Positions 24,730-42,107 of a stretch of 64,000 nucleotides of DNA are shown here, one piece after another (positions within the stretch are counted from its first letter, which is position 1; the number at the start of each line of letters is the position of its first letter). The stretch spans positions 1,736,001 to 1,800,000 of the forward strand of contig NZ_LT629759.1 in the NCBI RefSeq assembly GCF_900105025.1, in the 5' to 3' direction. The DNA is from Parafannyhessea umbonata. GTDB lineage: Bacteria > Actinomycetota > Coriobacteriia > Coriobacteriales > Atopobiaceae. The notes beneath the pieces were generated by a model. That model made no database searches. It was given only the letters and a program-made list of their open reading frames with translations, and was not told the origin of the DNA. The translations under genes and the position numbers were made by a program.

Positions 24730-27700
24730 CTACTCCAGCTCCACGCGCACGCTCGACCCGTCGCGCCCCGCCTCGACCACGATCTTGCGACCGATGGACT
24801 CCTGCAGCTCCTCGACGTGGCTGATGATGCCGACGAGCTTGTTCGACCCGGTGAGGTCCGAGAGCGTTCTGACCGCAAGCTCGAGCGACTCCTGGTCAAG
24901 CGTGCCGAAGCCCTCGTCCACGAACATCGCATCCAGCTGGACCCCGCCGGCGCTGGCCTGCACCACGTCCGAGAGGCCAAGCGCGAGCGAGAGCGACGCC
25001 TTGAACGACTCGCCGCCCGAGAGCGTCGAGGCCGGCCGCGGCTTGCCCGTGAACGTGTCACGCACGTCTAGCTCGAGCCCGGACTGCGAGCCACCCGTGC
25101 CCGTCTGCTGGCCGCGGTGACGCTCGAGCTCGAACCTGCCGTTCGTCATGACGGAGAGCCTGCGGTTCGCGGCATGGATCACGCGGTCGAACCACCGTGC
25201 CTGCAGGTAGGTCTCGAAGCTCAGGCGCTCCTTTCCCGAAAGCTGTCCCGACGCGGTCTGGGCGAGCGACCTCACCTCCCCGTAGCTCTCCGCCACCTCG
25301 AGGGCTTGCTTGCCCAGGCGCCGGAGCCTCTTTCTCATCCCCGCGTTCGAGCTCCTACGCGACGCCAGGACGGTCTGCCTCCCCAAGAGCCGGTCGAGCT
25401 CCTCGCGGACCCGGGCAAGGGCCGCCTCGGCGCCTTCCCCGTCCACCTGGCCTCGCGACCGCAGCGCATCCAATCGCTCCTGCGCGGATTTCCGGCTCGC
25501 CTCCGCGGCGGCCTCGCTGCGACGGGCCTCTTCGTAGGCGTCACGAGCGGAGGTCGAGCCCTCCTCCAAGGCGCGGCGTGCGGCCTCCGTCTGGTCGAGC
25601 CGCCGCTTGGCCTCCGCCCCGCTTCCAAAGCTCAGGCCTGCCGCGATCTGGCGTACGCGCGCGGTTGCGGACGCGACGTCACGCCCAAGGCCGTCAACCG
25701 ACTCGCGTCGCGCGTCGCGCCTCACCCGAAGATCCTCCACCTCACCCGCGAGTCGCTCTGCTTCCGCCGATGCAGCGGCACCCGCGTCCACGCGGGCGCG
25801 GGCGTCGCGCTCTGCCTTGAGCGCCGCGTCCAGCGCGCCGTCGCACACGCGCTTCCGTGCGCGCGCCGCCTCGACGTCCGTCTCCCCCAGTGCAGAGGAG
25901 AACTCCTCGAGCCCAGACTTCGCGGCGGCAAGCTCCTTGTCCGCAGCGACCCCGCAAGACCTCGCCTCCTCCACGCGCCGGTCGGCGTCCTCAAGCCTCT
26001 TGCGAGCGGCGTCGCGCCTCTTCCGCACATCCTCCAGTGCGGCGACCTCCACCTTCGCGGCGGACTCCTCGTTCCGGGCCGCCTCTCGTTCCTCCGTCAG
26101 CGCGGCGCGCCCCTTCGCAAGCGCATCCTCGCCCCCAGTCTCCGCAATGAGCCGCGACAGCTCCGCCTGCGACGCGTCGAGCCGCGCACGGGCATCGGCC
26201 GCCTTCGCGGCGGCGTCCTGGAACTTCTCCCTTGCGGCATCGGCCGCCTGCTTGGCGGCCTTGACCTGTCCCTCCGTGGGCACCTCCGCCGACACCGCCG
26301 CAAGGTGCGGATGCTCCGTCGAGCCGCAGACCGGGCACGCCATCCCCGGCGCAAGGGTGCTTGCCATGATGCCGGCCTGACCGTCGAGAAACGCACGCTC
26401 CGCCGCCGCATAGCGTGCCTGTGCCTCGTCGAACGCCTTCCTCGCGTCCAGGTGGAGCGACTTCTTTTTCTCCCACGTCGAGCGGGCCTCGTCGGCCTCC
26501 CGCCCACGCCTCTGCAAGTCCTGGCATGAGCGCTCGAGCTCCGCGAGGCGCCGCTCCACGTCCTCGCACGCCGCGGTTGCGTGCGCGAGGCGCTCTGGCG
26601 CACCCGCGCGCCGCGCCTCCGCCGCCTCCAAGCCAGCAACCTCTTCGCGAACCGCCGCCCGCGCCGATTCCTCCCGCTTAAGCGCAGCCGAGGCGTATGT
26701 CGCCTTCGCGGCAAGGCCCGCCACCGTCGCCGTGCGGCGCTCAAGCTCCTCGCAGTCCTGCACGGCTTGCGCGGCTGTCCCCTGCGCATGTTCCGCCTCG
26801 GTGCGAGACGCCTTCGCGCGCTCCAACTCCGCCGGCGCGCTGGCAAGCTCGCGCACCATGTCGCGCGCCCGGGCAAGGGAGTCGTCTTTCTCGCCCAGGG
26901 CGGCCTCGGTCTTCCCAAGCTCCGCCCGTGCCTCGCGAACCTTGCGCTCCGCCTCAGCCAGGGCCGTATTTGCGCGCCCGAGCTCTTCGTAGGCGGGAAG
27001 CTCCGCAGCAAGCGCCGCAGCCTTCCGCGCAAGCTCTGGGGCGCCCTTCGCGGCATCCTCCGCGCTCGCGAGCTCCAACTTGCGCGTTGCGGTCGTACCC
27101 GCGGCCGCGGCGGCCTTCGCCGTGGCTGCCGCGAGCGCCGCTTGTGCCTCGACCGTCTGGGTCGCAAGGTCGAGCTGGGCCTTCAGCGAGTCCTCGCGCT
27201 CGCGAAGGCGCGCGGCATCTGCGTCCAGAACTCCAGCCTCCGCCGCGTCGTCCTTCTCCTGGGCGTCCAGCAGGGCCACGAGGGCGTCCGCATCTGGTGC
27301 CGCAAGCGACTGCAGGCGCTCGAGCTCCGCCGCACGGGTCTCGCCCTCCACGCTGGCAAGCGACATGATGCCGCGGAGCTGGTCCGTGACGGACTGGCTG
27401 CTCTTCTCGAGCTCGCGCTGGCGCCTTGCGAGGGCGCGCTCGAAGGCGAGGTACGGCTCCGTGCCAAACAGTTTGCGCAGGATGGAGGATCGCTCCTTGG
27501 TGTCCGCGGAAAGCAGCCTGCGGAAGTCGCCCTGCGCGATCATCACGATCTGAGAGAACTGGTCGCGGTCGATGCCCAAAAGCTCCAGAACCCGCGCGTT
27601 CACCGCGGCGGTTCGCGTGACGGGCGGCTTCTCGGGGCTGTCGAGCTCCCACAGCGTCGCGTCCGCGCCCTCCGTCGTGGTGCCCTCGCCGCGGAGCTTC

Positions 27701-28002
27701 GGCCGCTCGTACGCGGGGTTGCGCAGCACGCGGTACCGACGCCCGCGGTGCTCGAACTCCAGCTCCACGTACGTCTTCACGTCCGGCGCCGCGAAGTCGC
27801 TCCTGAGCGTGCGCGCCTTGCGGAAGCTGCCGCTGGGCTCGCCGTACAGGGCAAACGATATCGCGTCGAATATGGTGGTCTTGCCGGCACCGGTGTCTCC
27901 GCAGATCAGGTAGATGCCCGACGTCCCCAGAAGCGAGAAGTCAATGCTTGCCTGGCCCGCGTACGGGCCGAAGGCGCTCATGGTGAGCCTTGTCGGCCTC
28001 AT
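24730..28002 (-). CDS. sbcC: SbcC, ATPase subunit of the SbcCD DNA nuclease
   Basis: A 1090-aa SMC/Rad50-like protein that with SbcD cleaves hairpins and protein-blocked DNA ends. Walker A GDTGAGKTTIFDAISFALYG is near residue 35, two long coiled coils flank the zinc hook CPVCG near residue 555, and the C-terminal lobe has LSGGESFKASLSLALGLSD and the Walker B region DAMFVDEGFGTLDQ. The length is normal. It begins immediately after the sbcD stop codon with no gap, so the two are coupled. The coiled coil is very Ala/Glu/Arg-rich, which makes long meaningless open frames on the opposite strand. Confidence 0.95.
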   Translation of the reverse strand: MRPTRLTMSAFGPYAGQASIDFSLLGTSGIYLICGDTGAGKTTIFDAISFALYGEPSGSFRKARTLRSDFAAPDVKTYVELEFEHRGRRYRVLRNPAYERPKLRGEGTTTEGADATLWELDSPEKPPVTRTAAVNARVLELLGIDRDQFSQIVMIAQGDFRRLLSADTKERSSILRKLFGTEPYLAFERALARRQRELEKSSQSVTDQLRGIMSLASVEGETRAAELERLQSLAAPDADALVALLDAQEKDDAAEAGVLDADAARLREREDSLKAQLDLATQTVEAQAALAAATAKAAAAAGTTATRKLELASAEDAAKGAPELARKAAALAAELPAYEELGRANTALAEAERKVREARAELGKTEAALGEKDDSLARARDMVRELASAPAELERAKASRTEAEHAQGTAAQAVQDCEELERRTATVAGLAAKATYASAALKREESARAAVREEVAGLEAAEARRAGAPERLAHATAACEDVERRLAELERSCQDLQRRGREADEARSTWEKKKSLHLDARKAFDEAQARYAAAERAFLDGQAGIMASTLAPGMACPVCGSTEHPHLAAVSAEVPTEGQVKAAKQAADAAREKFQDAAAKAADARARLDASQAELSRLIAETGGEDALAKGRAALTEEREAARNEESAAKVEVAALEDVRKRRDAARKRLEDADRRVEEARSCGVAADKELAAAKSGLEEFSSALGETDVEAARARKRVCDGALDAALKAERDARARVDAGAAASAEAERLAGEVEDLRVRRDARRESVDGLGRDVASATARVRQIAAGLSFGSGAEAKRRLDQTEAARRALEEGSTSARDAYEEARRSEAAAEASRKSAQERLDALRSRGQVDGEGAEAALARVREELDRLLGRQTVLASRRSSNAGMRKRLRRLGKQALEVAESYGEVRSLAQTASGQLSGKERLSFETYLQARWFDRVIHAANRRLSVMTNGRFELERHRGQQTGTGGSQSGLELDVRDTFTGKPRPASTLSGGESFKASLSLALGLSDVVQASAGGVQLDAMFVDEGFGTLDQESLELAVRTLSDLTGSNKLVGIISHVEELQESIGRKIVVEAGRDGSSVRVELE

Positions 28003-29154
28003 CTACATCACCCCTATCCCCTCGAGCTCCTCCTCCACGATGGCAAGCTGCCGCTCCGTGGGCGCGGTGCCGTTTTGGGCCTCGTAAAACTGCGAGAAGA
28101 GCTGAAGCGGGTCTTCCCGCGGCTCGTCCGCGGGAGCGTCCGCCTGCGCGCCGGCGGCACGCGTCCGCGCGTTGTCGTACTCGATGCTCATGACGTTTGG
28201 GTAGGCGTCGCGCAGACGCGCCATGGCGTTGACCTGCGGGTCCTGGTCCGTCAGGATCACGTGCAGGTAGTCCTGAGCATCCGCCGCGGAAACGACGTCC
28301 GCGCTCACGAGCTTGGCAAGCGGACCGCGAATGCGCCTGAGGTCGTGCGGCGGCGTGAGGGGCACGAGCTCGATGCCTGGCTCTTCTCCCTTGGCACCCA
28401 GCGTCACGAGGGGCGCGGACTTGTCGTAGTCCGCCTCTGACAGCGAGTACTTCAGGAGCGATCCCGCATAGCGCACGCAGTCGCGCCCGACGCGCTGCGC
28501 GCGATGGATGTGGCCGAGCGCAACGTAGTCGAACGGGTCGAACACGCTGGCGTCAACGTTGTCGAGACCACCGACCGAGACCTCGGAGTCGCTGCGCTCC
28601 ACCGTCACGCCCGCCGCCGTCACAAACTGGTGCACCACCGCGACGTTCCGTACGGACGCGTCGAGCGGAAGCGACGCCACGAGCGCGCGGAACGCGTCCG
28701 TATACGTGTCCGCCTTCGCGTCTGGCAGGAAGTGGCGGATCTGCGCGGGATGCAGAAACGGGATGGGCCACACCGCGACGGGGCCGTGCTCGTCGGCGAG
28801 CATGACGGGCTCGATGCGGCCGTCGAACGCCGGCGCCATGTGGATGCCCTGCCGCGACAGCAGCCCTCCCGCATAGGCAACGCGCTCCGCGGAGTCGTGG
28901 TTGCCGGGAATCACGATCGCCGGAACGCCGGTATCCGCCACGCCCTGGAGGAACCAGTCCACAAGCGCCACAGCCTCCGAGCTGGGCTGTGACTTGTCGT
29001 ACACGTCGCCCGCAACCAGAAGCGCGTCCGCCGTTCCCGCACGGAGCAGGCCCAGCACCTGCCCAAGGACGTGGCGCTGGTCGCCGATCATGGGAAAGTC
29101 GCACACGCGCTTGCCTATGTGAAGGTCCGCCAGGTGAAGTAGCCTCAATCGCAC
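28003..29154 (-). CDS. sbcD: SbcD, nuclease subunit of SbcCD
   Basis: A 383-aa Mre11-like phosphoesterase, the nuclease half of SbcCD. Motifs are LLHLADLHIGKRV, VAGDVYDKSQPS, VIPGNHDSAERV, VVHQFV and VALGHIHRAQ, in the expected order, followed by the C-terminal capping region. The GTG start at 29154 is set so the protein begins VRLRLLHLADLH, as in homologues; upstream in-frame sequence is not conserved. It is transcribed with sbcC and lies divergent from purL across a 256-bp gap. Confidence 0.94.
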   Translation of the reverse strand: MRLRLLHLADLHIGKRVCDFPMIGDQRHVLGQVLGLLRAGTADALLVAGDVYDKSQPSSEAVALVDWFLQGVADTGVPAIVIPGNHDSAERVAYAGGLLSRQGIHMAPAFDGRIEPVMLADEHGPVAVWPIPFLHPAQIRHFLPDAKADTYTDAFRALVASLPLDASVRNVAVVHQFVTAAGVTVERSDSEVSVGGLDNVDASVFDPFDYVALGHIHRAQRVGRDCVRYAGSLLKYSLSEADYDKSAPLVTLGAKGEEPGIELVPLTPPHDLRRIRGPLAKLVSADVVSAADAQDYLHVILTDQDPQVNAMARLRDAYPNVMSIEYDNARTRAAGAQADAPADEPREDPLQLFSQFYEAQNGTAPTERQLAIVEEELEGIGVM

Positions 29155-29410
29155 CGCCCCCAAAGCTCCCGGGCCCGCGCGGCCGCGCGGGCGAGTGTGA
29201 AAACCGATTCTAGCAATGCGAGTGGACATTAATTCGCCCGGAGTTCCCCCGGAGTTGGCACGCTTCTCAGGGCGCCAAGCCCGCCACGTGGCGGCACGCC
29301 GGCGCACTTTGCGCGTAACGAGGGATTTACGGGGGCCGCGACGCATCGCGCACGGCTGCGGGCTATGATTGAGGGGCCAACCCCACACGTCCCCGAGGAA
29401 AGGGCAGCAA
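29155..29410. promoter_or_regulatory. Divergent gap between sbcD and purL
   Basis: 256 bp between divergent genes. A CTATGAT element at about 29360-29367, some 45 bp before purL, could be its -10; no convincing -35 or purine riboswitch was recognised. The sbcD side has nothing distinctive. Confidence 0.3.
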
Positions 29411-32400
29411 ATGGTCTCACGTGTGTACGTAGAGAAGAAGCCGGGATTCGACGTAGAGGCGAAGCAGCTTGGGCACGAGCTGCGCCACACCCTGGGCGTG
29501 GGCGCCCTTACGGGCCTACGCATCGTCAACCGCTACGACGTGGAGGGGATCTCGAAGTCACTGTTCGAGAAGTGCATCCTCACGGTCTTCAGCGAGCCGC
29601 AGTCCGACGTCGCCACCACGCGCCGCCCCGCGGCAAAGGGTGCGAAGGTGTTCGCCGTCGAGTTCCTGCCCGGCCAGTTTGACCAGCGCGCGAACTCCGC
29701 AAGCGAGTGCATCCAGCTCATCAGCCAGGGTGAGCGCCCCACGGTTGCCTCCGCGAAGCTGTACTACCTTGAGGGCAAGCTGACCGAGGCGGACGTGGAG
29801 GCCATCAAGCACTACGTGATCAACCCCGTCGAGGCGCGCGAGGCCTCGCTCTCCACCCGCAAGACCCTGAAGGTCGACTACCCCAAGCCGCCGATGGTCG
29901 AGACCCTGACCGGCTTTGGGAAGCTCACGAAGAGGCAGCTGCAGGACTTCATCGACGAGCGCGGACTTGCCATGGACCTCGCGGACATCCAGTTCTGCCA
30001 GAAGTACTTCAAGGGCGAGAAGCGCGACCCCACGATCACCGAGATCAAGATGATCGACACGTACTGGTCCGACCACTGCCGCCACACCACGTTTGGCACG
30101 CAGCTTGAGAACGTCGCTATCGACGACGCCGTGGTGAAGGCCGCATTCGAGCGCTACCTGGAGGTCCGCCACGAGCTGGGCCGCGACGAGAAGCCCGTCT
30201 GCCTGATGGACATGGGCACCATTGGCGCGAAGTACCTGAAGAGCAAGGGCGTCCTCAAGAACCTGGACGAGTCCGAGGAGATAAACGCCTGCACCGTGAA
30301 GGTGAAGGTGGACGTCAACGGCAAGGACGAGGACTGGCTGTTCCTGTTCAAGAACGAGACTCACAACCACCCGACCGAGATCGAGCCGTTTGGCGGCGCG
30401 GCGACCTGCATCGGCGGCGCCATCCGCGACCCGCTGTCCGGCCGCAGCTACGTGTACCAGGCCATGCGCGTGACCGGCGCCGGCGACCCCACCGTCCCGG
30501 TGAGCGAGACGCTTACGGGCAAGCTGCCGCAGCGCAAGATCGTGCGCACGGCCGCGGCGGGCTACAGCTCCTACGGCAACCAGATCGGCCTCGCGACCGG
30601 CCAGGTGGACGAGCTGTACCACCCTGGCTACGTCGCGAAGCGCATGGAGATCGGCGCCGTGGTGGGCGCGACGCCCGCAAGCCACGTGCGCCGCGAGTGC
30701 CCCGCACCCGGCGACAAGATCGTGCTTCTGGGCGGCCGCACCGGCCGCGACGGCATCGGCGGCGCAACCGGCAGCTCCAAGGCGCACAACGTCGAGTCCC
30801 TCGAGAAGGACGGCGCAGAGGTGCAGAAGGGCAACGCCCCCACCGAGCGCAAGCTCCAGCGCCTGTTCCGCCGCGAGGACGCGTGCCGCCTCATCAAGCG
30901 CTGTAACGACTTTGGCGCAGGTGGCGTCTCCGTCGCGATCGGCGAGCTGGCGGACGGCCTGTACATCGACCTGAACAAGGTTCCGAAGAAGTACGAGGGC
31001 CTCGACGGCACGGAGCTCGCCATCAGCGAGTCCCAGGAGCGCATGGCCGTGGCGCTCGCCCCCGAGGACGTGGACGAGTTCATGCGCTACGCCCACGAGG
31101 AGAACCTCGAGGCGACCGTCGTGGCAAGGGTGACCAAGGAGCCACGACTGCGCATGGTGTGGGACGGCGAGACGATCTGCGACGTGAGCCGCGAGTTCCT
31201 CTCGTCCAACGGCGCCCCGAAGCACCAGGACGTGCACGTTGAGGGGCAGGGCTCCTACCAGCCGGACTTTGCAGGCGACACCCTCGAGGCACGCATGCGC
31301 TCCGTCGTGAGCGACCTGAACGTCGCGTCGAACAAGGGCCTTTCCGAGCGCTTCGACTCCACCATCGGCGCGGCGACCGTGCTCATGCCGTTTGGCGGCA
31401 GGTACCAGCTGACGCCGGCGATGGCCATGGTGGCGAAGCTGCCGGTGTTTGGCGAGACCACGACGGTCAGCGGCATGGCATGGGGCTTCAACCCCTACCT
31501 CATGAGCGAGAACCAGTTTACGGGCGCGTACCTCTCGGTCGTGGAGTCCGTGGCGAAGCTCGCCGCGGCCGGCATCGACCGCAAGGCCATGTACCTGACG
31601 TTCCAGGAGTACTTCGAGAAGCTGCGCGACGTGCCGGAGCGCTGGGGCAAGCCGACGGCCGCCGTGCTGGGCGCGCTCATGGCCCAGCTCGACCTTGGCA
31701 TAGGCTCCATCGGCGGCAAGGACTCCATGTCCGGCTCGTTCGAGGACCTGGACGTGCCGCCGACGCTCGTCTCGTTCGCGACCGGACTCGGCAGCGTGGA
31801 CGACATCGTGTCGCCGGAGTTCAAGCGCCCGGACAGCCAGCTATGGCTCGTGAGCCCCACGTACAAGGCCGACGGTGTGACTCCGGACGCCCAGAGCTTC
31901 CTGAAGGTGCTCGACTTCGTGCACGAGCACATTGGCTACGGCGTGGTGCTCTCCGCGTCGACCCCCGGCTATGGCTGCCTGGCCGAGCAGCTGTTCAAGA
32001 GCGCGGTGGGCAACCACATCGGCTTTGGTCTCGTAAACGAGTTCTTGGCCGACAGGCTGTTCAGGCTCGCGTACGGCAGCTTCGTGATCGAGGTGGCCGA
32101 CGGCACGTTCATCCCGACGGACCGCGAGGGCTTCCACGTGGAGTACCTGGGTGGCACGTCCGCGGAGTACAAGATGTGGGTCGAGGGCCAGGAGCTCGAC
32201 CTTGCCGGGCTGCAGGAGGCCTGGGAGGAGGGCATCGAGTCCGTCTTCCCGTACCGCCAGAAGGGAGAGCCCGTCAAGACCGTGACGTTTGACGCGGCGG
32301 AGCGTGGCGTTTCTCGCCCGGCGCCCCTGGTGAAGGTCCCCCGGCCGCGCGTGGTGATCCCCGTGTTCCCGGGCAACAACTGCGAGTACGACTCCGCCGC

Positions 32401-33262: not shown

Positions 33263-34468
33263 CTAACGCACGAACATCCTGCGCATGGCCGGGCGCGACG
33301 TCATCTGCTCCAGCACGTCAAGCAGCTCGTCCGCCTGGTAGAACACCCCGCGACGGCGGTTTCCCATGGGCGTGAGCATGCCATACTCGCACGCCCGCGC
33401 GATAACGTCACGGGCAGCCCTGGGAGTGATCTGCAGATGGTCCGCCACATGGGCGACGCTCACGACGGGCTGCGCCACTAGCACGGCCGGAAGCATCCGT
33501 ATGGCAGAGCCCCTGCGCTCGCCCATCTGCTCCTGCCAGCGCTCGATTATGTCATCTATCTGCCGCGTCGCGGATTGCGCCAACGCAAGCGCAACCTCAA
33601 GGGCATTCACAAGCTCGCCCACGATGGGCCGCACATCGCCGTCGTGATAGCTCTGGAGCGCGCCCATGTACGAATCCACATCGTGCAGCAAGCCGGAAGA
33701 TATGGGCAGGGTCGCGTGCCTCAGCACGTCGTGGTAGCAAAGCCAGCGGTGTAGCAGCGCACGTCCCGTTCGCCCGTTGCCATCCACAAACGGATGGATG
33801 GTCTCGAACTGCGCGTGTGCCACGGCCGCCTGGACCACGGGATTGAGGTCGTCGCGCCGGACGAACGCCATGAGGTCGTCGAGAAGGGCGGGCACCCGCT
33901 CCTGTGATGGCGGCACGTACGCAGCCCCCTGCGGCCCGAAGGCGCTGCCCCCTATCCACACCTGCTCGTCCCTCAGCTCGCCGCCAAAGGACTCGCCCGT
34001 CACGCTCATGAGACTCGCATGCACGCGGAGCACGTCCCCCACACTCGGCTCCCCCTTAAGCTCGATAGCCTCGCGCATGGCACGGACGTTGCCCGCAATC
34101 TCGCGCGAGTTTCTGGGCGTCGTTGCGTCGAGCTCCGCCAGGGCGACGTTTCGCACGCTTGCAGTCAGGTTCTCGATGCGCGAGCTCGCGGAGGACTCGC
34201 TCCTGAGCAGCAGGGCTGGCAGGTCGTAGCCGCGCACCGAAAGCAGCGCGTCAAAGCGGATGAGCTCCGATTCCACCTCCATCGCATGGCGAAGCAGGTC
34301 GGCAGGAACCTCGGGCGTAAGCTGCGCAATCATGGGTGGCACCGCGGCGTAGTAGGTCTCACCCATTTTCCTACGCGCACTTTTGGACATGAGCGCGCGG
34401 TCATCATCGTCCACATGCCATCCAAGCTCCTCGTACCCAACGCGAGGCCAAGTGCTCTTCTCGTCCAT
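33263..34468 (-). CDS. Fic/DOC-family AMP-transferase-like protein with C-terminal winged helix
   Basis: A 401-aa Fic protein; such enzymes transfer AMP or other nucleotide moieties from NTPs to target proteins. The catalytic motif HPFVDGNGRTGR is at about residues 221-232. The inhibitory helix motif SSRIEN near residue 96 (class II, N-terminal) would keep it auto-inhibited. The C-terminal 70 residues (VSVAHVADHLQITPRAARDVIARACEYGML) form a predicted winged helix-turn-helix, so it may bind DNA and control its own promoter, which carries several copies of a repeat. ATG 34468 follows a G run; GTG 34474 is an alternative. It stands alone between purL and the MetE-like gene. Confidence 0.9.
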   Translation of the reverse strand: MDEKSTWPRVGYEELGWHVDDDDRALMSKSARRKMGETYYAAVPPMIAQLTPEVPADLLRHAMEVESELIRFDALLSVRGYDLPALLLRSESSASSRIENLTASVRNVALAELDATTPRNSREIAGNVRAMREAIELKGEPSVGDVLRVHASLMSVTGESFGGELRDEQVWIGGSAFGPQGAAYVPPSQERVPALLDDLMAFVRRDDLNPVVQAAVAHAQFETIHPFVDGNGRTGRALLHRWLCYHDVLRHATLPISSGLLHDVDSYMGALQSYHDGDVRPIVGELVNALEVALALAQSATRQIDDIIERWQEQMGERRGSAIRMLPAVLVAQPVVSVAHVADHLQITPRAARDVIARACEYGMLTPMGNRRRGVFYQADELLDVLEQMTSRPAMRRMFVR

Positions 34469-34502
34469 CCACACCCCCCATTCGCTTCCTCTAGAAACTC
34501 TC

Positions 34503-36034: not shown

Positions 36035-36070
36035 TTGCTCACTACCGGGACAGCGCGGGAGGGAGGCGCC

Positions 36071-38209
36071 GTGGACCAGGACTACAAGCAGGGCGAACGC
36101 GCGCGGGGCACGTCCGCGCAGGATGGCCGCGGCGACTCCCCCGCCGCCATCGGCAGCCGTGCGCGCCAGGTGATAGACCGCATTCTGCAGGGCGCCTCGG
36201 AACGGGAGCGCGCGATCTTCTCGCAAAGGACCTTTGGCGACGAGCCGATCCTGCGCACCGGCGCAGACCTGCGTCGCGAGCGCGAGGCCACGGCGTCCGC
36301 AGCCGCACCGTCCGCAGCCCCCGCGGACGCCGGCGCCACAGGTATGCGCCCCACCCCATTGCCCGGCGCCTCCGGGCGAGAAGAGCGCGCCGCCCTTCGC
36401 CGCGCGGCGCGTGCGGAGCTTCCGCCCCGGCCGCGCCCCACGCACGACGACGCCCTCCGCCAGCGCAGCTGGCTGGACGAGCTCGACGCGCCGCTCGACG
36501 CGGACGGCCCCTCCTCCGGCTGGCCGTACGACGGCTGGTCGTGGCCGCACCCGGACGTCGCGCCGGCCCACCCGCGGCAAGGTTCCCGCAAGGCGTCCGC
36601 GCGCGCCGGCAGCAACCTGCCCCAGACCCTGCGCGAGCTGCGACAACTCGAGACCGAGCCGCAGCCCAACGGCACCAGGCTCACCGGCGTGAGCCTGTTT
36701 GTGGCGCAGGCGCGCCTTGCCGCCAGCTACGAGGACGATTCCGCCCCGTCGCCGTTTGGCGTCAGGTACCGCTACAGCGTGTCGTACCGCGACCTCTCCG
36801 ACGAGGAGCTCCGCGGCTACTTCGCATGGCGCACCGCATGGCGCGCGCACCGCGAGGACCGCATTCCCTACACGTACGGCCACATCCTCGCAGCGGAGCT
36901 CGTGAACGGCATCGGCGCGGAGCCCGGCATGCCCTGTCTGCAAGAGCTCGTCCGCCTGCGCGACCGCGCGACGGAGCTCGACGCGGACGGCATGTCCTCC
37001 GGCCTCGCGTTCGACGCGCGGCGCTGGATCCGCGACTACGCCGTGCTCCACAACCTCCCGGCAGAGCTTGCCACCTCGGCGGACGAGCGCGCCTTCGCCC
37101 AGGCGGTCGCCACGCTGCGCACGGCAGAGCGGGCGGTCCTGTGCGAGACGGGCGCCCGCGGCCTCACGCCCAAGGACATGCCGGCACACGTTCCAACCGA
37201 TGCAGACGTCTGGAAGGCAATGGCCGCGCTGTCCTCGTACAACGTGGAGCGCTCCCCGTTCCTGCGAAACAACCCCCAGTCAGCGGCCGCGGTCGGCGCG
37301 GCCGTGTTCCGCGCGCTTGCCAAGCACTGCGGCAAGCGCCGCAAGACCAACCTGGTGGACGGCCTCGTGGGCTGGGAGTCCAGCGTCGGCTGGTTCCCGT
37401 TTCCGGACCTCCCGTGCACGCTGCCCAAGGAGCTGCCCTCCCCCACGTACCGCATCGACGCGTGCACGCGCGTGACCACGCTCGCCGGACGCTGGTTTAT
37501 CTACCGCGGCTACGAGCGCGTGGGCAAGAGCCGCGACCTCGGCCGCATCCTGCGCGCCATGGACCGCCAGATGCGCGAGGACTGGGACGACCCGCGCGCC
37601 CTCAAGCCGCGCCCCCTCGCAAAGTACCTCGAGAAGATCGTCGTCCAGGCGTCCGCTGAAGAGCGCCAGCGCGAACTCGAGGCAGAGAGCCGCAAGATAG
37701 TGATCGATCTCTCCAAGCTCGGCGGCATTCGTGCCGCAGCGGCCACAACCCGCGAGGCGCTCCTTGTGGACGAGGAGATCGAGGACGAGCCCACCGCAAC
37801 GACCGCGCCCACTCCGTCCTCACCCGCGCCGACTGCGTCCGCCCCCATGGCCCATCCGGCGCACGCGGTCGAGAAGAACGCCGCGCCCTCGGTCGCAAAC
37901 CCCACCGCCACCGATGGCACGACCGCGGCAGCAACGTCACCCGCGAGCCCGAACCCCGTCGCCGCCGAGGATGGCCAGACGCCATGCGGCCTGGACTTCC
38001 TCGAGCTCAAGGTCATCGCACGCGTGTCCGAGGGCAAGCCTTTCTCGGATCTGCTCGGCCCGGGCAAGCCCATGGCATCCGTGTTGGTAGACTCCATAAA
38101 CGAGAAGCTGTTCGACGAGCTTGGCGACACGGCGATCGAGTACGTCGACGGAGAGCCGCGGCTCGTTCCGGACTACGTCGAGGATGTTCGCGACATCTGC
38201 GGCCTCTAA
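36071..38209 (+). CDS. TerB-N/TerB-C domain protein
   Basis: A 712-aa protein that appears soluble. Residues about 1-200 are a disordered Ala/Pro/Arg-rich region (SGREERAALRR carries the dispersed motif at 36375-36383). A TerB-N-type domain follows (SYRDLSDEELRGYFAWRTAWRAHREDRIPYTYGHILAAELVNGIG). After another Ala/Pro/Thr linker, the last 75 residues match TerB-C (LDFLELKVIARVSEGKPFSDLL ... DSINEKLFDELGDTAIEYVDG). Such proteins are encoded next to DUF2791 ATPases and Lhr-like helicases in phage-defence and stress loci, as here. GTG 36071 follows GGGAGG. Exact role unknown; it may be a scaffold or sensor for the two enzymes downstream. Confidence 0.75.
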   Translation: MDQDYKQGERARGTSAQDGRGDSPAAIGSRARQVIDRILQGASERERAIFSQRTFGDEPILRTGADLRREREATASAAAPSAAPADAGATGMRPTPLPGASGREERAALRRAARAELPPRPRPTHDDALRQRSWLDELDAPLDADGPSSGWPYDGWSWPHPDVAPAHPRQGSRKASARAGSNLPQTLRELRQLETEPQPNGTRLTGVSLFVAQARLAASYEDDSAPSPFGVRYRYSVSYRDLSDEELRGYFAWRTAWRAHREDRIPYTYGHILAAELVNGIGAEPGMPCLQELVRLRDRATELDADGMSSGLAFDARRWIRDYAVLHNLPAELATSADERAFAQAVATLRTAERAVLCETGARGLTPKDMPAHVPTDADVWKAMAALSSYNVERSPFLRNNPQSAAAVGAAVFRALAKHCGKRRKTNLVDGLVGWESSVGWFPFPDLPCTLPKELPSPTYRIDACTRVTTLAGRWFIYRGYERVGKSRDLGRILRAMDRQMREDWDDPRALKPRPLAKYLEKIVVQASAEERQRELEAESRKIVIDLSKLGGIRAAAATTREALLVDEEIEDEPTATTAPTPSSPAPTASAPMAHPAHAVEKNAAPSVANPTATDGTTAAATSPASPNPVAAEDGQTPCGLDFLELKVIARVSEGKPFSDLLGPGKPMASVLVDSINEKLFDELGDTAIEYVDGEPRLVPDYVEDVRDICGL

Positions 38210-38220
38210 AATTGCCAAAA

Positions 38221-38256
38221 GAACATCTGTTCTATTTCTCCTCCATGGTCTACAAT
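38221..38256 (+). promoter_or_regulatory. LexA-like SOS box overlapping the promoter of the ATPase-helicase pair
   Basis: GAACATCTGTTC (38221-38232) is a perfect GAAC-N4-GTTC. It overlaps a possible -35 (TGTTCT, 38228-38233), which is 17 bp from TACAAT (38251-38256), a good -10. The start codon is 30 bp further on. A LexA dimer here would block the promoter until DNA damage. Confidence 0.6.
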
Positions 38257-38285
38257 GGTTGGTCACACCATAAGGAGGGGGTCCA

Positions 38286-39674
38286 ATGGCAGCTCAACAG
38301 CAGAGGCGCGTGCCCAAGCGCATCGCGGCGGTGATAGTCAACTCACTCAAGGGCGGCGTCGTCCCACGCATCGGCCTTCCTTACATCACGGTCGGGCGCG
38401 AGCGAGAGATCGCGGCCCTGCTGCATGACCTTGACCTTGTGTCCGAAGGCGGCGCGAGCTTCCGCTTCGTCGTGGGCCGCTACGGTGCCGGCAAGAGCTT
38501 CCTGCTGCAGACCATCCGCAACCACGCCATGGGCAAGGGCTTCGTCGTGTGCGACGCGGACCTCTCGCCGGAGCGTCGCCTGCAGGGCGGCAACGGCCAG
38601 GGCCTTGCCACGTATCGCGAGCTCATACGCAACCTCTCCACCAAGACGCAGCCGGAGGGCGGCGCCCTTAACCTCATACTCGACCGGTGGGTATCCAACG
38701 TGGAGTCCCAGGTCACGCTCGAAGACGGCATCGGCCCGGACAGCCCGGGGTTCGCGGATGCCGTCGAGCGTCGCATCCTCACCACCATCCACGACCTGCA
38801 GGAGCTTGTGCACGGCTACGACTTCGCACGTCTGCTCACCATGTACTGGCGCGCCCACCTCGAGGGGGACGACGACACGAAGGCAAGCGTCACGAAGTGG
38901 TTCCGCGGCGAGTTCCGCAACAAGACGGAGGCGCGCCAGGAGCTCGGCGTCAACATCGCCATCGGGGACGACGACTGGTACGACTACCTCAAGCTGTTCG
39001 CCACCTTCCTGCGCGGCGCCGGCTACCAAGGCCTCATCGTCCTGGTAGACGAGCTCGTGAACCTCTACAAGATCCCGAATGCAATCAGTCGTCAGTACAA
39101 CTACGAGAAGATCCTCACCATGTACAACGACACCCTCCAGGGTAAGGCGCACTACCTCGGCATCATCATGAGTGGTACGCCCCAGTCCATAGAGGACCGC
39201 CGTCGCGGCATCTACTCGTACGAGGCCCTGCGCAGCCGTCTCACACAGGGGCGCTTTGCCCAGGGCGGCCTCGTGGACATGCTCGCGCCCGTCATCAGGC
39301 TGCAGCCACTCACGCACGAGGAGCTCCTCGTTCTCATCGAGAAGCTCGCAGACATCCACGCCGGGCTCTTTGGCTACGAGCGCAGCGTCACGCAGGAGGA
39401 CCTTGTACGCTTCCTGCAGGTGGAGTACGGACGCGTCGGCGCGGACACCCACCTGACGCCCCGCGAGGTCATTCGCGACTTCGTGGAGATGCTCGACATC
39501 CTGAGCCAGAACCCCACGCTCACCATCGACGCAATGATCCAGAGCGAGGAGCTGAACGCCCCCGTACAGACTCCCGTGGAGCAGCGCGAGGAGGCGGCCG
39601 CCTCGCCACGTGCGAAGAGCGTTCCCGCAACCAAGACGGAACGTGGCGATGACTTTGCGGAGTTCAGCATCTAG
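38286..39674 (+). CDS. BrxC/BrxD-type P-loop ATPase (DUF2791), BrxD-like
   Basis: A 462-aa AAA-like ATPase. Walker A FVVGRYGAGKSFLLQ is near residue 65, Walker B GLIVLVDELVNLYKI near 250-262, and IIMSGTPQSIED is a sensor-like segment. The sequence PRIGLPYITVGREREI at the start and the C-terminal LTPREVIRDFVEML resemble BrxD, the ATP-binding protein of type 2 BREX loci and of TerB-associated islands. ATG 38286 follows a strong AGGAGGGGG. The helicase gene starts 15 bp after its stop. It probably loads or regulates the helicase on DNA; that is inference from the conserved pairing. Confidence 0.82.
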   Translation: MAAQQQRRVPKRIAAVIVNSLKGGVVPRIGLPYITVGREREIAALLHDLDLVSEGGASFRFVVGRYGAGKSFLLQTIRNHAMGKGFVVCDADLSPERRLQGGNGQGLATYRELIRNLSTKTQPEGGALNLILDRWVSNVESQVTLEDGIGPDSPGFADAVERRILTTIHDLQELVHGYDFARLLTMYWRAHLEGDDDTKASVTKWFRGEFRNKTEARQELGVNIAIGDDDWYDYLKLFATFLRGAGYQGLIVLVDELVNLYKIPNAISRQYNYEKILTMYNDTLQGKAHYLGIIMSGTPQSIEDRRRGIYSYEALRSRLTQGRFAQGGLVDMLAPVIRLQPLTHEELLVLIEKLADIHAGLFGYERSVTQEDLVRFLQVEYGRVGADTHLTPREVIRDFVEMLDILSQNPTLTIDAMIQSEELNAPVQTPVEQREEAAASPRAKSVPATKTERGDDFAEFSI

Positions 39675-39689
39675 CAGACGGGGAAGACC

Positions 39690-42107
39690 ATGTCCACCTT
39701 CGATCGCTATGCCCCCTTCATACAGGACTTCATCTACGAGCACGACTGGCAGAGCCTGAGGTCGGTGCAGGTTGCGGCGGCCGAGGCGATATTCGACACG
39801 GACGAGAACGTCCTTCTCACCGCATCAACGGCATCCGGCAAGACGGAGGCCGCGTTCTTTCCCATACTGACCGAGTTCTGGGAAGACCCGCCCGCGTCCG
39901 TCGGTGCCATCTACATTGGCCCCCTGAAGGCGCTCATCAACGACCAGTTCATCCGTCTCGAGGACCTGTGCGCCGAGGCAGACATCCCGGTCTGGCACTG
40001 GCACGGCGACGTGTCGCAGTCTCACAAGCGCAAGATGATGAAGCACCCCTCTGGCATACTCCAGATAACGCCGGAGTCCCTGGAGGCAATGCTCCTGCAC
40101 CGCCACTCAGCCATAGGGCGCATCTTCGGCGACCTTCGATACGTCGTGATAGACGAGGTCCACTCGCTGCTGCGCGGGGACCGCGGAGACCAGTGCCTCT
40201 GCTGCATCGAGCGGCTGAGCAGGCTCGCCGGCGTGAATCCCAGGCGCATAGGGCTCTCCGCCACCATCGGCGACCCCGTTGCGACCGGACAGTACCTGAG
40301 CGCCGGCACCGGACGCGGCTGCGTCATCCCAAAGCTCGAGGGCCCGAAGGAGCGCTGGCGCATATCCATGGAGCACTTCTACACGTCGGGTCCCCAAGCG
40401 CCCGAACGCGGGGCCGACGTCCTCGGGCACGACGCCACCAAGGACGCGGAGACGCCCAGATACGAGATCCCGGTGGGGCTTGCCAGGGAGGAGCACATTC
40501 CCTCCCCAGAGGAGCGCGTGGAGGACGTCGCAGCGGAACGGCCGCTCCCCGACCCAGAGCAGCCTGCGGAGGAGGCCCCCACCGATGCCGCTCCCGTATA
40601 CGCTGACCCGGGGCTCGCATACGTCTTCGAGCACACGCGCGGCCACAAGTGTCTTGTGTTCGCAAACTCCAGGGAGGAGGCGGAATCGGTCTGCACCACG
40701 CTCAGGCAGTACTGCGAGGCGACGGGCGAGCCGGACCGCTTCCTGATCCACCACGGCAACCTCTCCGCCAGCCTGCGCGAGTCGACCGAGGAGATCATGC
40801 GCGAGGAGGACGCGAACCTCACGACGGTAACGACGGCCACCCTCGAGCTCGGCATCGACATAGGCCGGCTCGAGAGGGCGTTCCAGATCGACGCGCCGTT
40901 CACGGTGAGCTCGTACCTGCAGCGCATGGGCAGGACGGGCAGGCGTGGACAGCCGAGCGAGATGTGGTTCCTCATGCGCGAGGACGAGCCAGAGTCCCGA
41001 GCCCTCCTGCCGGAGACGATCCCGTGGAAGCTCCTCCAGGGAATCGCCCTCGTCCAACTCTACGTCGAGGATCGCTGGGTCGAGCCGCCACGGCTGGACG
41101 GACTCCCCTACAGCCTGCTGTACCACCAGACGATGGCCACGCTCGCAAGCTCCGGCGAGCTCTCCCCCGCCGAGCTCGCGCGCCGCGTGCTCACGCTGAC
41201 GCCGTTTCACAGGATTTCGGCGGACGACTACCGTATCCTCCTGCGTCACCTCATATCAATCGACCACATCCAACAGACCGAAGAGGGCGGCCTCATCGTC
41301 GGCATCGCCGGCGAGCGCGTGACGAACAACTTCAAGTTTTATGCCGTGTTCAGCGAGGACGAGGAATTCACCGTAAGGAGCGAGTCGCAGGAGCTAGGCA
41401 CCATCGTCCAGCCGCCTCCCGTCGGCGAGCGCATCGCAATCGCCGGGGCGACGTGGGTGATCGAGGAGATCGACTACAAGCGCCACCTCATCGAGTGCTC
41501 ACCCGTCAAGGGCAAAGTCCCCGCATACTTCGGCATGGTCGCCGGCGACGTCAACACCCGCATCCTCGAGCGCATGCGCCTCGTGCTGCGGGAGGACAGG
41601 CTGTACCCGTACCTCCGCCGTAACGCCCGCGCACGTCTGGAGCAGGCACGCCACGTCGCAAGGAACGCCCACGTCACGACAGAACCGCTCATCTGCGTGG
41701 GCGGCACCGCGTGGTGTCTCTTTCCCTGGCTCGGGAGCTATGCGTTTCTCGCCCTCGAGCGCCTGATAAAAATCAAGTGCGCGGCAGAGCTCGGCCTGAA
41801 GGGGCTCGACTCCTCACGCCCGTACTTCATGCAGTTCACCATGCGGGCAGATGCGGAGACGTTCTATCGTGTCGTGAAGGAAGCGGCGGCATCGATCTCG
41901 GACCCGCTCGAGCTCGTATATCCCGGGGAGGTCCCCTACTTCGACAAGTACGATGAGTTCGTCCCGGAGGAGCTCATCCGCAAGGGCTTCGCATACGGGG
42001 TACTCGACGTCGAGGGAATGGTCGATCGAGTGCTGGGGTGGCCGGATGCACCCAAGAGCGACCAGGGAGGCTTCCTTCCCGGCACAGACCACCGACTCTC
42101 GAGCTAG
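39690..42107 (+). CDS. Lhr-like DEAD/DEAH-box helicase (BrxHI-type)
   Basis: An 805-aa superfamily 2 helicase. Motif I TASTASGKTEAAFFPIL is near residue 48, the DEVH box (YVVIDEVHSLLRGDRG) near 154, motif III GLSATIGDP near 190, and motif VI QRMGRTGRRGQ near 411; a WYL-less C-terminal extension of about 350 residues follows. It lacks the long tail of full Lhr (about 1500 aa) and matches the size of BrxHI of type 2 BREX. It is directly downstream of the BrxD-like ATPase in one operon. None of the BREX core genes (brxC/pglY, pglX methylase, pglZ) is in the window. Confidence 0.88.
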   Translation: MSTFDRYAPFIQDFIYEHDWQSLRSVQVAAAEAIFDTDENVLLTASTASGKTEAAFFPILTEFWEDPPASVGAIYIGPLKALINDQFIRLEDLCAEADIPVWHWHGDVSQSHKRKMMKHPSGILQITPESLEAMLLHRHSAIGRIFGDLRYVVIDEVHSLLRGDRGDQCLCCIERLSRLAGVNPRRIGLSATIGDPVATGQYLSAGTGRGCVIPKLEGPKERWRISMEHFYTSGPQAPERGADVLGHDATKDAETPRYEIPVGLAREEHIPSPEERVEDVAAERPLPDPEQPAEEAPTDAAPVYADPGLAYVFEHTRGHKCLVFANSREEAESVCTTLRQYCEATGEPDRFLIHHGNLSASLRESTEEIMREEDANLTTVTTATLELGIDIGRLERAFQIDAPFTVSSYLQRMGRTGRRGQPSEMWFLMREDEPESRALLPETIPWKLLQGIALVQLYVEDRWVEPPRLDGLPYSLLYHQTMATLASSGELSPAELARRVLTLTPFHRISADDYRILLRHLISIDHIQQTEEGGLIVGIAGERVTNNFKFYAVFSEDEEFTVRSESQELGTIVQPPPVGERIAIAGATWVIEEIDYKRHLIECSPVKGKVPAYFGMVAGDVNTRILERMRLVLREDRLYPYLRRNARARLEQARHVARNAHVTTEPLICVGGTAWCLFPWLGSYAFLALERLIKIKCAAELGLKGLDSSRPYFMQFTMRADAETFYRVVKEAAASISDPLELVYPGEVPYFDKYDEFVPEELIRKGFAYGVLDVEGMVDRVLGWPDAPKSDQGGFLPGTDHRLSS

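Follow-up and report, generated by a model that had tools for sequence, protein, structure and literature searches.

Related systems

Shango is a three-gene anti-phage system of Pseudomonas aeruginosa. Both the P. aeruginosa and the E. coli Shango block phages in the laboratory, and the study that describes them mentions neither the SOS response nor LexA (PMC10250203). No published mechanism of Shango was found, and a literature search, mostly of freely accessible papers, returned nothing relevant that links Shango or TerB with LexA; the novelty of the link described below is thus provisional.

Other defence systems are tied to host DNA damage, as Shango would be here. AbpAB is triggered by DNA damage, and its activation is independent of RecA and LexA (PMC10732053). 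Hachiman (PMC12278908) is also tied to damage of the host DNA. In both systems it is the activity of the proteins that responds to damage, whereas the link predicted for Shango in the present locus is transcriptional.

BREX type 2 systems include a BrxD/BrxHI dyad (PMC12839542), which resembles the locus examined here in that a homologous ATPase and helicase are encoded side by side. The locus also resembles the LexA/SOS regulons of the Bacillota/Actinomycetota type, which use GAAC-N4-GTTC: the type of box and its location in a promoter are shared with lexA, recA, ruvC and dinB of this genome. The difference is that the genes predicted to be controlled here encode a defence system instead of classical repair proteins.

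The gene set of Parafannyhessea umbonata

The window (the whole stretch of DNA that was analysed) covers 64 kb of a single-contig 2.35-Mb genome. It encodes a TerB protein, a BrxC/D-type ATPase and a DEAD/DEAH helicase, whose genes are consecutive on the + strand (Table 1). These are the three proteins of the P. aeruginosa and E. coli Shango systems, in the same order (PMC10250203), and each of the three PADLOC models is matched, with scores of 632 bits for the ATPase (SngB model) and 914 bits for the helicase (SngC model). Judged by these models, the gene set at 36035–42107 is a Shango system.

The sequence-only reading had taken the ATPase and the helicase for a BrxD/BrxHI pair. This assignment, and with it membership of BREX, has to be abandoned: the ATPase scores 186 bits with the NCBIfam BrxD equivalog (NF033438), for which the cut-off is 350 bits, and, unlike in BREX type 2, a TerB gene stands in front of the pair. 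Among the 15 window proteins that were scanned (a subset of the frames between 24.7 and 49.7 kb), no PglX methyltransferase, PglZ or BrxC was found.

The helicase is Lhr-like, and the solved structure that is closest to it by sequence is 5v9x. The helicase is also related to TIGR04121, a family of ligase-associated DNA-damage-response helicases, with a score below the cut-off. A sequence comparison found no solved-structure relative of the ATPase.

The Shango genes adjoin a gene on the − strand (33263–34474) whose product is a Fic-family protein matching the SoFic model (PADLOC, 3.2e-68); a Fic gene likewise lies upstream of Shango on a Phaeobacter plasmid. An sbcD–sbcC pair, which encodes a DNA-end-processing nuclease, is located about 6.5 kb upstream of Shango on the opposite strand (24730–29529, −).

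Table 1. Features of the Shango locus (positions in the 64-kb window)
Feature	Position	Strand	Evidence or remark
sngA, TerB-domain protein	36035..38209	+	PDLC03958 SngA 9.3e-64; TerB_N and TerB_C; longest frame, putative TTG start
Alternative −35-like hexamer TTGCCA (candidate)	38212..38217	+	TTGACA in the sister species
LexA box (putative SOS operator) GAACATCTGTTC	38221..38232	.	matrix score, identity with the dinB box, conservation
−10-like hexamer TACAAT	38251..38256	+	unchanged in the sister species
Ribosome-binding-site-like AAGGAGGG	38272..38279	+	upstream of sngB, by sequence reading
sngB, ATPase	38286..39674	+	PDLC03959 SngB 1.6e-190; BrxC_BrxD Pfam 2e-168
sngC, Lhr-like DEAD/DEAH helicase	39690..42107	+	PDLC03960 SngC 1.9e-275

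The LexA box upstream of sngB

The sngA stop codon, which ends at 38209, and the sngB ATG at 38286 are separated by 76 bp. This gap contains GAACATCTGTTC, 18 bp upstream of TACAAT and 53 bp upstream of the sngB start, so that the LexA-like box that had been noticed over the promoter of the ATPase–helicase pair is indeed present, intergenic and in the promoter region. The eight-letter pattern GAAC-N4-GTTC is by itself not significant in the window: it occurs twice, the mean in shuffled windows is 0.73, and 21 of 100 shuffles reach two. The significance of the window box comes from its LexA matrix score, its identity with the dinB box of the same genome and its conservation.

The scoring against a LexA motif, which the sequence-only reading had suggested, was carried out with a matrix trained only on the lexA promoters of the family (204 boxes from 71 promoters). 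With this matrix GAACATCTGTTC scores 19.7 bits and is the top position of the whole 64-kb window. It is conserved in the sister species.

The genome contains one strong LexA gene, and the promoter of this gene carries two boxes, GAACATATGTTT and GAACATCTGTTT. The boxes of recA (GAACGGTTGTTC) and ruvC (GAACGAACGTTC) both lie just upstream of the gene, and a 12-mer identical to the window box is found 4 bp upstream of the longest frame of a dinB-type polymerase gene. The lexA, recA and dinB boxes agree with the window box and with GAAC-N4-GTTC, the consensus on which the case for a LexA site had been made to depend beforehand. Outside the box, the alignment of the window promoter with the dinB promoter is uninformative. 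As far as can be judged from sequence, the window box is almost certainly a LexA operator.

The genome as a whole was read from the full list of exact GAAC-N4-GTTC sites, of which there are 25, and from chosen stretches. Further exact sites are found close upstream of dnaE, of the gene of a radical-SAM/HhH protein and of the gene of a protein that combines HhH-GPD and methylguanine-methyltransferase domains; no exact box was found in the examined flanks of two further Y-family polymerase genes. Another exact site (G000:C1:680139) lies about 167 bp upstream of an mraZ-like start, at the head of the division cluster. The window itself has a second strong LexA-type box, GAACGTTTGTTC (30–41, 18.2 bits), upstream of the frame of a PD-(D/E)XK nuclease-family transposase (PF12784, 154–1038); upstream of it lies a short frame in another phase, as if the gene had a frameshift or a different start.

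The relation between the box and the core promoter is less clear-cut than had been proposed. TGTTCT (38228–38233), a −35-like element 17 bp upstream of TACAAT, does overlap the box, but its assignment as the −35 is weak: it matches TTGACA at two of six positions, and a promoter scan found no sigma-70 pair in the sngB promoter region. TTGCCA, on the upstream side of the box and separated from it by 3 bp, is no less likely than TGTTCT to be the −35. The box thus lies within the core promoter region, where both hexamers are candidates for the −35. Between sngA and sngB a scan found no terminator; transcription that runs on from sngA could therefore contribute expression independent of LexA.

Conservation of the box and of SngB in the Atopobiaceae

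A box of at least 8 bits is present in 69 of the 79 Atopobiaceae sng promoters, and each of these 69 boxes is matched by at most one in 20 shuffles of its own promoter. In the same loci, the density of boxes of at least 12 bits is 1.47 per kb in the sng promoters versus 0.034 per kb elsewhere (about 43 times less), and several of these other boxes sit at sngC. A promoter was readable in 18 genera, and by manual count 17 of them carry the box. The remaining 10 family loci have no box at the first place looked, and several of them have one at the other gene. In the relatives, the box is thus kept at the same gene, as expected of a member of the SOS regulon.

Several loci of one genus (L068, L069, L071, L074, L075, L077, L085 and L089) share a further strong LexA-type box, GAACAAATGTTC or GAACAAGTGTTC, which lies beyond sngC, at about +3.8 kb from sngB.

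SngB is encoded by 106 of the 140 genomes of the family (80 of the 101 good genomes, 19 of 35 genera), nearly always in a single copy. In an order-wide sample it occurs in 159 of 301 genomes and is rare in one other family. The distances between SngB proteins correlate with those between LexA proteins in 22 genomes (Mantel r 0.63, p 0.0005; means of 0.27 and 0.24, respectively). SngB is thus near-core in the family and appears to be largely inherited by vertical descent. The E. coli Shango, on the contrary, is a patchy island system (the ATPase gene is found in 480 of 5,426 genomes), without a LexA box in the copy read.

Position of the box and organization of the operon

The position of the box was surveyed in 93 distinct Coriobacteriales loci, which are related and do not represent independent events. 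Of the 49 loci in which sngA and sngB overlap or are almost contiguous, 47 have the box upstream of sngA and none upstream of sngB. A gap of more than 300 bp separates the two genes in five loci; all five have the box upstream of sngB and none upstream of sngA. For intermediate gaps (25–300 bp), the box is at sngB in 19 loci, at sngA in six and absent from one. None of the 93 loci has a box at both genes. Similarly, where other genes lie between sngB and sngC, 15 of 27 loci carry a separate box for sngC, versus one of the 45 loci in which the two genes are neighbours (Fisher p 2e-7). The box goes with the first gene of the transcription unit.

In the genus of the window, the box precedes sngB. 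A promoter separate from that of the TerB gene, as the sequence-only reading proposed, is therefore found in this genus and in some others; in most relatives the box precedes sngA, and TerB (sngA) is predicted to be within the LexA regulon.

In some relatives (loci L316, L308, L140, L115 and L110), other genes are inserted between sngA, sngB and sngC. Read by eye, these have the look of common genes for metabolism, transport or signalling and not of defence genes, and the separated sng genes often retain a LexA box.

Occurrence of the box outside the family

The box is found in all 13 loci read in a second family, apparently the Coriobacteriaceae (the family of Collinsella and Enorma), and in all four loci read in a third family, probably the Eggerthellaceae, where one of the four is weak (11.8 bits). 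In the Bacillota, the promoter was complete in 43 loci, and a box reaches 12 bits or more in 17 of them; shuffled promoters give 0.8 on average and three at most. About 60% of the Bacillota loci, including most of those from Lactobacillaceae, have no box.

The Shango copies of Klebsiella, Salmonella, Methylibium, Burkholderia, Phaeobacter and E. coli were examined for the LexA box type of their own lineage, and none that convinces was found; the Burkholderia copy has a weak match with one mismatch at −274. Given the box-less Bacillota and proteobacterial loci, SOS control cannot hold for Shango in general; it is predicted for certain lineages, in which a known system is wired in this particular way. 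With the lexA-promoter matrix, no box was found at the distant BrxD-like matches (1e-60 to 1e-30) from other Actinomycetota, which are probably not Shango.

Proposed regulation and function

LexA regulation of Shango is strongly supported by the comparisons above. From the same data we infer the binding of LexA, the induction and the roles of the proteins, be it in repair, in phage defence or in both. The LexA operator very probably represses a unit that includes sngB and sngC, which would encode an SOS-induced DNA surveillance or processing activity.

In an undamaged cell, LexA bound to the box at 38221–38232 would occlude the promoter and block RNA polymerase. When single-stranded DNA accumulates, as a consequence of host damage, stalled forks or the replication of a phage or prophage, RecA filaments would form and induce the self-cleavage of LexA, just as in the control of recA, dinB and lexA; SngB and SngC would then be made. 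Their most likely role would be that of an SOS-induced complex which surveys or processes abnormal replicating DNA, phage DNA included. Here, and in the majority of the relatives, Shango is probably part of the DNA-damage response and not an always-on defence.

LexA control is predicted across a bacterial order and for some loci of a second phylum, which suggests that Shango is wanted when single-stranded or broken DNA accumulates; its timing would point to the substrate of the system. The signal that induces prophages would also raise the Shango defence. These observations bear on the extent to which anti-phage systems are damage-response machinery.

A broader proposal, which we put forward tentatively, counts Shango among the conserved SOS genes of the Coriobacteriales and of some Bacillota. 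The complex of TerB protein, ATPase and helicase would there serve primarily in damage-induced surveillance or repair of DNA and would travel elsewhere as a mobile anti-phage system, and selection would have kept or re-created the LexA operator wherever a rearrangement split the operon. With the same operator, it is also conceivable, at somewhat less than even chances, that in Coriobacteriales the three genes mainly do housekeeping DNA repair as part of the SOS regulon, for example at stalled forks through the Lhr-like helicase, the anti-phage use elsewhere being secondary. The helicase type, the near-core and usually single-copy SngB, the parallel divergence of SngB and LexA and the metabolic or transport appearance (by eye) of the genes found between sng genes are consistent with a housekeeping function. 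However, the system is absent from about one fifth of the good family genomes and rare in another family, the P. aeruginosa and E. coli versions block phages (PMC10250203), and no damage phenotype is known for Shango. The sequence is compatible with a role in repair as well as with a phage defence that is gated by damage.

It is very unlikely that the box is bound by another repressor sharing the motif, of phage type or a second LexA-like protein, instead of the host LexA. Two more proteins do have weak LexA-type DNA-binding domains (21.6 and 20.6 bits, below the cut-off), but the same motif stands in the promoter of lexA itself and at recA, ruvC and dinB, and the matrix is derived from lexA promoters of the whole family. 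Finally, a chance match without regulatory role, which the frequency of the bare pattern in the genome and in shuffled windows might suggest, is ruled out by the matrix, by the position-specific conservation, by the 43-fold enrichment relative to control DNA of the same loci and by the fact that the box moves with the structure of the operon.

Copies on mobile elements

No SngB relative was found in phage records. Of two Paenibacillus plasmid copies of Shango, one has a box (13.4 bits, at −160). The Klebsiella copy on pCAV1392-131 has an IS26 on its upstream side, and no TerB gene is listed for it; it carries little weight for the question of the box. Relatives of SngB occur in 691 plasmid records, 449 of which are from Klebsiella, and 542 of the 691 are predicted to be conjugative.
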